A stretch of 64,000 nucleotides of DNA from Bdellovibrio sp. NC01 (lineage in GTDB: Bacteria > Bdellovibrionota > Bdellovibrionia > Bdellovibrionales > Bdellovibrionaceae). The notes beneath the pieces were generated by a model. It searched no databases. It saw nothing but the letters and a program-made list of their open reading frames with translations, and was not told the origin of the DNA. The stretch spans positions 806,001 to 870,000 of the forward strand of contig NZ_CP030034.1 of the NCBI RefSeq assembly GCF_006874625.1, given 5' to 3'. Position numbers and translations under genes: made by a program. Shown in pieces: positions 22,338 through 60,782 of the stretch (position 1 is its first letter; each line of letters starts with the position of its first letter).

Positions 22338-23447
22338 TTAGCGAACGCCGCTGCCATTTCCGCTGCCACGCAAAGTTTCGCTGGCAGTGCCTTTCGGGGC
22401 GAGCTTCGATTTTTCCGCAGCTTGCACCATTTTATCAAAACAGTTTGTCTTTTGATCGTTGTCACAACATTTGTAAGCGGCAGCAATAGCACGCTCTTCA
22501 GGAAGTACAGCTTTTTCCTGCATTTGGTCGGCTTTATCTTTCGGGAATGAATAAGCCGTTTCAGAACTGACTTTGCCATTTTTGATTTTCACAACCACAC
22601 CCGCGGCCGGCATATTACCAGCAGATAGTGCCGTACAAATCGCAGAGGGATGTTTAACGCCCGCAATGATTTCAGTGACGCTGCCATCTTCATGATAAAG
22701 CTTCACGACACGTGGATAAAGAGCCGCATTCACACGGGCACTTTCTTCAGCATTACAAAGATAGCTTGCGCCACCTTCTTGCACAGAATCGGTTGAAACA
22801 TCGCCAGCGGAACCTTGGCACTTTACTTCAATGCCGACTAAGTCTTTAGCTGAAAACAATTGCTTCATGGTTGCGATACTCGTCTTATCAAGTTCGGCAA
22901 CGCCGTCCTTTTTAACATAGGTATCGTACAGACGCGAACCCACCCATTTTTTTGATTCTTGATTCCATTTTTCCAATAAGCGTTCCACTAAAAACGTTGG
23001 GCTGCCTTCTGTCGCGGCGTAAGCCGAATTCACAATGAAAGACCACAATGAAGCGCGACCACGCAAAGCACGCTCAACGTATTTAATACGCTCAACCGGG
23101 TCGCGATAGGGAGTCACGTCAACTAACAAGCCATTTACGTGTGCAGAGCCGTTTTCTTTAAATTCGATCGAATACTTGCGTGAGTTGATTGAGAACTCCA
23201 TGGTCTGTTCCGTCGTTGAAACCTTCGCAAGAGTCGGTGTTGTAAAACCCGAAACTTCATAACCTGCACGCTTCAACGACGCTAAGTCGCTGGCAGAAAA
23301 ACTTGCTCCAACAATCGCCGCATCCGAAAACTTGCTATAAAGCTCGCGCACGTTTTCGAAGCTGTGCTCTTTGATGGCATCCAATGGTTTGGCGATTGAA
23401 GTCAGAGAAGTCATTAAAATAAGGGCAGAAACGACCAAGTATTTCAT
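22338..23447 (-). CDS. Secreted protein, unknown function
   Basis: 369 aa with a signal peptide (residues 1-19, ending SIA-K). The mature protein is hydrophilic. A hydrophobic stretch RASLWSFIVNSAYAATEG near 131-148 resembles an internal signal-like segment. Five Cys lie in the second half, including VKCQG, YLCNAEE, AICTAL and KCCDNDQKTNCFDK, suggesting disulfides. The last 25 residues are Gly/Ser-rich. No family recognised. Its start codon lies exactly 7 nt after a sigma-28-like -10 box and there is no Shine-Dalgarno, so its mRNA is probably leaderless (promoter at 23455-23481). Confidence 0.75.
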   Translation of the reverse strand: MKYLVVSALILMTSLTSIAKPLDAIKEHSFENVRELYSKFSDAAIVGASFSASDLASLKRAGYEVSGFTTPTLAKVSTTEQTMEFSINSRKYSIEFKENGSAHVNGLLVDVTPYRDPVERIKYVERALRGRASLWSFIVNSAYAATEGSPTFLVERLLEKWNQESKKWVGSRLYDTYVKKDGVAELDKTSIATMKQLFSAKDLVGIEVKCQGSAGDVSTDSVQEGGASYLCNAEESARVNAALYPRVVKLYHEDGSVTEIIAGVKHPSAICTALSAGNMPAAGVVVKIKNGKVSSETAYSFPKDKADQMQEKAVLPEERAIAAAYKCCDNDQKTNCFDKMVQAAEKSKLAPKGTASETLRGSGNGSGVR

Positions 23448-23454
23448 GTCATAT

Positions 23455-23481
23455 GTATCGGAATTTTACGAAAAAATTTAA
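23455..23481 (-). promoter_or_regulatory. Sigma-28 (FliA)-like promoter, leaderless geometry
   Basis: On the minus strand TTAAATTT (23481-23474), an 11-nt spacer and TCCGATAC (23462-23455) match the sigma-28 consensus TAAAGTTT-N11-GCCGATAA at 6 of 8 and 6 of 8 positions. The ATG at 23447 follows after 7 nt (ATATGAC), about where transcription should begin. Confidence 0.6.
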
Positions 23482-23516
23482 GTTTCAGTCTCAAAAAGAG
23501 AATGCAAACAAACACC

Positions 23517-23543
23517 TTATCTTTAGTCTAGTGGGGCCGATAA
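23517..23543 (+). promoter_or_regulatory. Sigma-28 (FliA)-like promoter, leaderless geometry
   Basis: TTATCTTT, 11 nt, GCCGATAA: the -10 is a perfect match to the sigma-28 consensus and the -35 matches 5 of 8. The ATG at 23551 follows after 7 nt (GTTTCCT) with no Shine-Dalgarno. It faces away from the similar promoter at 23455-23481. Confidence 0.72.
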
Positions 23544-23550
23544 GTTTCCT

Positions 23551-24081
23551 ATGATGTCTGTACGAACTGTTTTCTTATGTCTGATTGCCGTTGGTGGCCT
23601 TGCCATCGGATACAGTCAAAATCCCTTCGGAAGAAAACCTAAAGCCGCCCCCCAGATTGCTCAGAACGAAGCGCAGGCGTTGCGTGAAAAAGCGCATTTT
23701 TATTTTCTGATGCGCAACTATCAAGGAGCATTGGATCTGACGGAAAATTTTCCGTCCACTTCTAAAGAGTACGAACAAGTGCAAATCATTCGTCGTATGG
23801 CTCAATACAAGATCAAAAAAAATCAGGGCAGAAAAACCAAGGTGAACGAGTGGGATTATCAGGCGTATCCCGCGGCCGTGCGGGATTCCCTGTTTGATTC
23901 TCTTTATGCAAGTTCGCAGGGGCGCTGTTTTGATGCGTATCAAGACATGAAAGTGGTCAGCCTCTATACAAATAAATCTTACGAAGAGTGGATTTATAAC
24001 AATTGCAAAGAGTCTCGTGACAGCCGTCAACCGGCGTCGGAGCGTGCGCTGGAAGCATTGAATCTCAAAGAGACGAAATAA
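23551..24081 (+). CDS. Exported or membrane-anchored small protein, unknown function
   Basis: 176 aa with an N-terminal hydrophobic segment (about 6-20, VFLCLIAVGGLAIGY) acting as signal peptide or anchor. The rest is helical and hydrophilic: residues 40-90 resemble a TPR-like pair (LREKAHFYFLMRNYQGALDL, IIRRMAQYKIKKNQG). Two Cys (GRCFDAYQ, NNCKESRD) are late in the chain. No family recognised. A perfect sigma-28 -10 box ends 7 nt before the ATG, so it is likely expressed with flagellar or attack-phase genes from a leaderless mRNA. Confidence 0.75.
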   Translation: MMSVRTVFLCLIAVGGLAIGYSQNPFGRKPKAAPQIAQNEAQALREKAHFYFLMRNYQGALDLTENFPSTSKEYEQVQIIRRMAQYKIKKNQGRKTKVNEWDYQAYPAAVRDSLFDSLYASSQGRCFDAYQDMKVVSLYTNKSYEEWIYNNCKESRDSRQPASERALEALNLKETK

Positions 24082-24142: not shown

Positions 24143-24169
24143 TCATCTTTGGTCGAGCTGGACCGATAA
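24143..24169 (+). promoter_or_regulatory. Sigma-28 (FliA)-like promoter of hpf
   Basis: TCATCTTT, 11 nt, ACCGATAA, followed by G. Over 28 aligned positions it agrees at 22 with the promoter at 23517-23543, including the spacer. Unlike that one it leaves a leader of about 40 nt with a normal ribosome site (GAAGGAG) before ATG 24216. Confidence 0.68.
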
Positions 24170-24215: not shown

Positions 24216-24566
24216 ATGAAACTCAACTACACTTTTAAGCACCTCGATCACTCGGATTCTCTAGAGACTTACACGGCAGAAAGAATGGAAGAGATCGGGA
24301 AATTCTTGCTTAAAGAGGGTTACGGCAACGTTTACTTCAGCAAAACGAAAAATGAGTTCTGCGTGGAAGTTTCTGTGAACACGCGCGAGAAATATTTTAA
24401 AGCTTCTGGGTTCAGCGTAGATGTGTACGCAGCAGTGGACTCAGTCGTTGAAAAACTCGAGAAGCAATTTTTGAAAAATACGAAGTTGCATAAAGATCAC
24501 AAGAAGCCAGAGCTTTCTCGCGAAGGCCGACTGGAGACAGCAATTCGTTTCAGAAAAGCCGCGTAG
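24216..24566 (+). CDS. hpf: Ribosome hibernation-promoting factor (HPF/RaiA, short form)
   Basis: 116 aa, the size of short HPF/YfiA proteins. The beta-alpha-beta-beta-beta-alpha order is readable: FKHLDHSDSLETYTAERMEEI, then FCVEVSVNTREKYFKASG and DVYAAVDSVVEKLEKQF, the conserved block that lies in the ribosomal decoding channel, and a basic C-terminal tail (LHKDHKKPELS). It binds 30S subunits and keeps ribosomes idle in starved cells. The sigma-28-like promoter upstream would tie it to the motile, non-growing phase. It has its own terminator, and its TAG stop is followed directly by A/T-rich spacer. Confidence 0.88.
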   Translation: MKLNYTFKHLDHSDSLETYTAERMEEIGKFLLKEGYGNVYFSKTKNEFCVEVSVNTREKYFKASGFSVDVYAAVDSVVEKLEKQFLKNTKLHKDHKKPELSREGRLETAIRFRKAA

Positions 24567-60052: not shown

Positions 60053-60079
60053 TTTAGTCTGGGGTCTTACTTCCGATAA
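60053..60079 (+). promoter_or_regulatory. Sigma-28 (FliA)-like promoter, leaderless geometry
   Basis: TTTAGTCT, 11 nt, TCCGATAA: 5 of 8 and 7 of 8 to the sigma-28 consensus. The ATG at 60087 follows after 7 nt (AAAATCC), with no Shine-Dalgarno. The spacing is the same as at 23455-23481 and 23517-23543. Confidence 0.65.
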
Positions 60080-60086
60080 AAAATCC

Positions 60087-60782
60087 ATGGGAATGTTAGA
60101 TCGTTACAAGAAAAAGGGCGGCTTCTTTCAACTTCTTCAATTGTTGGAGACTTCTCCTTCTGCAAAGAGGGAACAGTTTCTAACTTTGATCGCGGGTGAG
60201 AGCCCAGTATGGGAAGAGGCACTTCGACAAAGAATTCTAACTATCACAAGAGTGTATTCTTGGGATGGTCAATATCTGGTAGAGATTTTCTCGCGCGTGC
60301 AGCCGATGACTTTGGCTTATGCGCTTCATGGAAATCCTCCAGAGCAAATCGAGCAGCTATTAAGTTGTCTGCCACCGATTTCAAAAAGAAAAATCACTGA
60401 TTTGATGACGGAATCAAATCCTTCTGCAGCAGAGAAGGGAACTTGTATTTCGAAAATGCTGTCAGAGGTTCGTGGTTTTATCTCTCAAGGGATTATTCGC
60501 CTTGATAAGGTTGATCCTGAATTGCATATCCCTGAAAACATCGAAGAGGTTTTGAGCTCGACGGTGCATGCAGTTCCGCTGTATGAAACAGATGCGATGA
60601 AGAAAGACTCGAAGCCAAATATCGTTGGTGACAACGATGGTGCGGTCGCAGCTCCTGCGAATTCGCAAGAGACTGAGTTCTTGAAACGCAAAGTGAATCA
60701 ATTGGCATCAGAGGTCAATGCTTTGAAGCATGAAAACTCTGTGTTGAAAGATAAGCTCGCGCAGATTAAGAAAATCGCTTAG
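60087..60782 (+). CDS. FliG-like protein with C-terminal coiled coil
   Basis: 231 aa, cytoplasmic. Residues about 30-110 resemble the FliG C-terminal domain: VEIFSRVQPMTLAYALHGNP parallels the conserved L-A-x-A-L-x-G text of FliG, followed by EQIEQLLSCLPPISKRKITDLM, as in the K-R-x-A-x-x-I region. A second helical part (115-150) and a Ser/Glu linker lead to a C-terminal coiled coil (about 195-231: LKRKVNQLASEVNALKHENS then VLKDKLAQIKK). It lacks the full three-domain FliG architecture. With a sigma-28-like promoter ending 7 nt upstream, it is likely a motility-phase protein, perhaps a rotor accessory or FliG decoy. Confidence 0.68.
   Translation: MGMLDRYKKKGGFFQLLQLLETSPSAKREQFLTLIAGESPVWEEALRQRILTITRVYSWDGQYLVEIFSRVQPMTLAYALHGNPPEQIEQLLSCLPPISKRKITDLMTESNPSAAEKGTCISKMLSEVRGFISQGIIRLDKVDPELHIPENIEEVLSSTVHAVPLYETDAMKKDSKPNIVGDNDGAVAAPANSQETEFLKRKVNQLASEVNALKHENSVLKDKLAQIKKIA

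Follow-up and report, generated by a model that had tools for sequence, protein, structure and literature searches.

Two divergent genes of Bdellovibrio sp. NC01 are very probably transcribed from FliA (sigma-28) promoters whose natural start falls on the A of the start codon, and this would give leaderless attack-phase mRNAs for both. The genes are located in the window, a stretch of 64,000 nt comprising positions 806001-870000 of the 3.98-Mb single-contig genome. As judged from the DNA sequence, the FliA start point, 7-8 nt 3' of the -10 octamer, would be the first base of the start codon itself, both genes are predicted to yield leaderless mRNAs in the attack phase, and translation would proceed via recognition of the 5'-terminal AUG and not via a Shine-Dalgarno (SD) sequence. 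Both would fall into a class that numbers some 25-30 members in this genome and is itself presumably part of a wider leaderless habit in Bdellovibrio which includes sigma-70-like promoters.

The preliminary description had assigned to each of the two genes a sigma-28-like promoter with the end of the -10 octamer exactly 7 nt 5' of the ATG and no SD sequence, and this arrangement was confirmed. The plus gene (23551-24081, + strand) encodes a secreted or membrane-anchored protein of 176 aa with a hydrophobic N-terminus. Its -35 box TTATCTTT (23517-23524) is followed by N11, the -10 box GCCGATAA (23536-23543), N7 (GTTTCCT) and the ATG at 23551, which is also the predicted transcription start of this putatively leaderless gene; the full layout TTATCTTT-N11-GCCGATAA-N7-ATG spans 23517-23553 (+). 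The minus gene (22338-23447, - strand), also predicted to be leaderless, encodes a protein of 369 aa with a signal-like N-terminus. Here the -35 box TTAAATTT (23481-23474) is followed by N11, the -10 box TCCGATAC (23462-23455), N7 (ATATGAC) and the ATG at 23447, and the layout TTAAATTT-N11-TCCGATAC-N7-ATG spans 23481-23445 (-); this -10 site is found among the whole-genome pattern matches as G000:C1:829445-829461. Both genes start with AUG, and no SD motif was found 5' of either start codon. A two-codon frame ATGACATGA (Met-Thr-stop) at 23444-23452 (-) of the window overlaps the minus-gene ATG and would sit 5' of the predicted start of its transcript. No Pfam family was found for the protein of either gene.

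Agreement with the -10 consensus GCCGATAA, as expected of a FliA promoter, amounts to 8 of 8 positions for the plus gene and 6 of 8 for the minus gene. Both promoters have a -35 element close to TAAAGTTT located 11 nt 5' of the -10 box. The minus-gene element matches in 6 of 8 positions, and only 2.3% of the CCGATA[AC] sites in 1.26 Mb are as good; the plus-gene element matches in 5 of 8 positions and is within the top 7.5% of these sites. In most orthologs of the plus gene this element reads TCATCTTT, an atypical -35 variant. FliA itself is encoded in the genome (TIGR02479, 281.6 bits at a cut-off of 189.6).

An excess of the 7-nt spacing throughout the genome had been named as a check of the leaderless reading, and the outcome was strongly positive. 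We analyzed a sample of 1.264 Mb (32% of the genome), made up of the window and 60 stretches of 20 kb taken at even intervals, and whole-genome figures were obtained from pattern counts of CCGATAAG-N{2,15}-ATG. In the sample, CCGATAA was located exactly 7 nt 5' of a gene-opening ATG in 6 cases; for the 419 alternative permutations of its letters the average, taken as the expectation, was 0.11, and none of them exceeded 2 at this distance. Within the same 1.264 Mb no case was found at 0-6 nt, two cases were at 8 nt and larger distances occurred sporadically. The excess is present with ATG and hardly with GTG or TTG starts. For the whole genome, 16 of 46 places showed the 7-nt spacing, with about 2.3 for each other spacing, and in 13 genomes of the genus 176 of 551, against an expectation of 1/14. 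In other families of the phylum the proportion was 318 of 2092 (15%, 7% expected), which is weaker than in the genus (36%). If transcription begins at a fixed point, start codons would be expected to show just such a distribution, with a sharp lower edge and a single preferred distance.

The pattern CCGATA-N8-ATG occurs at 52 places in this genome, about 25-30 of which open plausible genes as judged by reading. In genome G005, 21 of the 22 sites of the 7-nt class open frames of at least 134 aa. Many members begin with a signal-like peptide and the class is rich in secreted and surface proteins; the domains identified include a hybrid histidine kinase, an adenylate/guanylate cyclase, an HD-domain protein, an RDD membrane protein, FliG_C and a TPR protein. 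The FliG_C-domain protein (231 aa, 60087-60782, +) is encoded within the window behind a third promoter with this layout, TTTAGTCT-N11-TCCGATAA at 60053-60079 (+), with the ATG 7 nt further, and is likewise predicted to be leaderless. The biggest group is a fibre family with the motif ..LTYQGRI.. after the signal peptide, and in G005 the C-terminal parts of its proteins gave matches to the known structures 8OJN and 8OML/8ON4. The structures 8OJN (Bd3182) and 8OML (Bd1334) represent mosaic adhesive trimer (MAT) fibres on attack-phase cells (PMC10769870). Considering only MAT genes with a placeable start, CCGATA is located exactly 7 nt from the start in 8 of 22 in the NC01 genome and in 8 of 12 in G005; at several other MAT starts the box at that distance has decayed to CCGA. 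Prey-recognition fibres account for at least 8 genes of the class in NC01 and for 8 in G005. In one search, matches to the MAT N-terminal domain numbered 30 in this genome versus 19 in G005, 16 in G002 and 6 in G022.

With 7-8 of the best sites per genome being MAT paralogs, duplicated genes might simply have carried the spacing along, and the window genes might match by coincidence. After collapsing the MAT paralogs to one, however, the 7-nt excess was retained, with 11 of 41 sites in the NC01 genome (p=1e-4) and 16 of 41 in G005 (p=8e-9); moreover, the plus gene shows no relation to the MAT genes and its spacing is conserved in orthologs. The permutation control and the collapsing of the MAT genes rule out chance and paralogy as the source of the excess, and we regard this explanation as extremely improbable.

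Orthologs of the plus gene were identified in 10 other Bdellovibrio genomes, with 30-35% protein identity to the window protein. Counting the window gene, all 11 orthologs have NCCGATAA as the -10 box, and nearly all have a -35 of the TCATCTTT type. The ATG comes 7 nt after the -10 box in nine of them and 8 nt after it in the remaining two, which are closely alike. Three further genes with orthologs in G005 (71, 67 and 64% identity) have the 7-nt spacing in both genomes. When the whole collection was scanned for the shared -35 variant, 3 Bdellovibrio records and 4 unrelated matches were returned, the latter probably due to chance. In G006 an apparently different gene is divergent at the same place (L142, position 1378, strand opposite to the ortholog); it shows TCCGATAA-N7 followed by GTG, perhaps a leaderless GTG start. 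For the minus gene no match was detected among 29 relatives, and its assignment therefore depends on its own promoter sequence. This missing ortholog and the weaker -10 box (TCCGATAC) weigh against the interpretation, but on its promoter the minus gene is still probably a leaderless case of the FliA type.

Bacterial RNA polymerase favours start sites with a pyrimidine at -1 and a purine at +1. Among the sites with the 7-nt spacing in four genomes, 60 of 68 (88%) had C or T immediately 5' of the ATG, versus 65 of 116 sites with other spacings (Fisher p=3e-6). Non-coding CCGATAA sites without an ATG have a purine at the expected +1 position in 73% and C in 5%, which is only suggestive with 38 sites. 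In Campylobacter, sigma-28 transcripts start 6-8 nt 3' of CGATwt (PMC3847290). Because of this start distance and the pyrimidine-purine signature we infer that the A of the ATG is +1, give or take one nucleotide; leaders of 1-2 nt would be indistinguishable from zero. The proposal of sigma-28 promoters with leaderless mRNAs gains strong support from the spacing statistics, the initiator signature, the orthologs and the paralogs.

The further suggestion that the sigma-28 regulon is leaderless holds for a subset. Other FliA-like promoters of the same genomes have leaders with an SD sequence, and the regulon is therefore mixed. One example adjoins the plus gene: a ribosome hibernation factor-like gene (hpf, 24216-24566, +; Ribosomal_S30AE, PF02482) is preceded by the FliA-like promoter TCATCTTT-N11-ACCGATAA at 24143-24169 (+; position 24162), with 46 nt from the -10 box to the ATG and an SD-like purine stretch in the leader. 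This promoter is present in most orthologous loci, and its -35 stretch TCATCTTTNGTC resembles the -35 of the putatively leaderless plus gene upstream. Another conserved FliA-like promoter, G000:C1:1928445-1928497(-), has counterparts in G005, G002 and G011, and ATGTCTTAAGAC sits 5 nt after its CCGATAA in the four genomes. Such leadered cases lend some weight to the idea that the CCGATA boxes of the two window genes are real FliA promoters whereas the functional mRNAs are leadered, either from a promoter further upstream or through an internal translation start. We consider this quite unlikely, since the ATG opens a signal-like peptide that is common to orthologs and paralogs and since leadered mRNAs would provide no reason for an exact 7-nt spacing to be conserved.

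Leaderless transcription at the FliA promoters appears to be one part of a genome-wide habit. Among 672 SD-less starts from the window and the sampled stretches (L001-L060), 51 TANNNT boxes were located 6 nt and a further 26 were located 7 nt 5' of the first ATG, compared with about 11 at each other distance, and no such peak was seen in the genes with an SD sequence of the same survey. The excess of these sigma-70-like boxes corresponds to about 5% of genes. Their peak 6-7 nt from the ATG rules out that leaderlessness is specific to sigma-28. It also bears on a possible function in which leaderless FliA mRNAs would serve to make translation selective for the attack phase, for instance through 70S ribosomes present alongside hibernating ones. 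The adjoining hpf gene with its conserved FliA-like promoter fits such a role, but leaderlessness is not phase-specific because the sigma-70-like promoters show the same spacing, and we regard this function as unlikely. The same low probability applies to the more elaborate model that Bdellovibrio couples FliA to leaderless translation, in which the mRNAs of fibres and surface proteins would be translated preferentially by 70S ribosomes in non-growing attack cells while the hibernation factor is co-made.

If the FliA start indeed falls on the start codon, a predatory bacterium would join those with abundant leaderless mRNAs, many of them driven by a flagellar-type sigma factor, and exact 5' ends and start codons are predicted for dozens of genes, prey-recognition fibres among them. 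Reporter and toolbox design in Bdellovibrio would be affected as well: published constructs used about 100 bp 5' of the start with an added RBS (PMC12622784), and a leaderless gene would therefore become leadered in this design. Two Bdellovibrio toolbox papers, one of them PMC12622784, do not mention leaderless mRNAs, neither promoters nor FliA are mentioned in the text of the MAT fibre paper (PMC10769870), and by titles, abstracts and term counts no paper in the open-access literature searched joins Bdellovibrio and leaderless mRNAs in substance.

Both elements of the proposed mechanism, a FliA-type attack-phase regulon in Bdellovibrio and leaderless mRNAs in many bacteria, are already known. 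In B. bacteriovorus HD100, 92 of 140 promoters mapped in the attack phase carry TTAAG-N16-CCGATA according to the main text of Karunker 2013 (PMC3627812), which describes no start-codon-proximal promoters or leaderless mRNAs. The promoters analyzed here resemble this FliA regulon of the same genus in the CCGATA -10 box, the T/A-rich -35 and the FliA_WhiG-type sigma factor; the spacing class and the link to MAT genes are added to the regulon as published. Like the MAT family (PMC10769870), the fibre genes encode a signal peptide with a conserved N-terminal domain behind it, and members have C-terminal parts matching 8OJN and 8OML. Leaderless mRNAs have been reported in Mycobacterium (PMC3898074), Leptospira (PMC5243855), Salmonella (PMC3293720) and Campylobacter (PMC3847290), and the genes described here are like them in having a -10 box fixed a few nucleotides 5' of the AUG, no SD sequence and an AUG start. 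The leaderless genes of Campylobacter have sigma-70 boxes (PMC3847290), whereas in Bdellovibrio a large predicted leaderless set combines sigma-28 promoters with predation genes.
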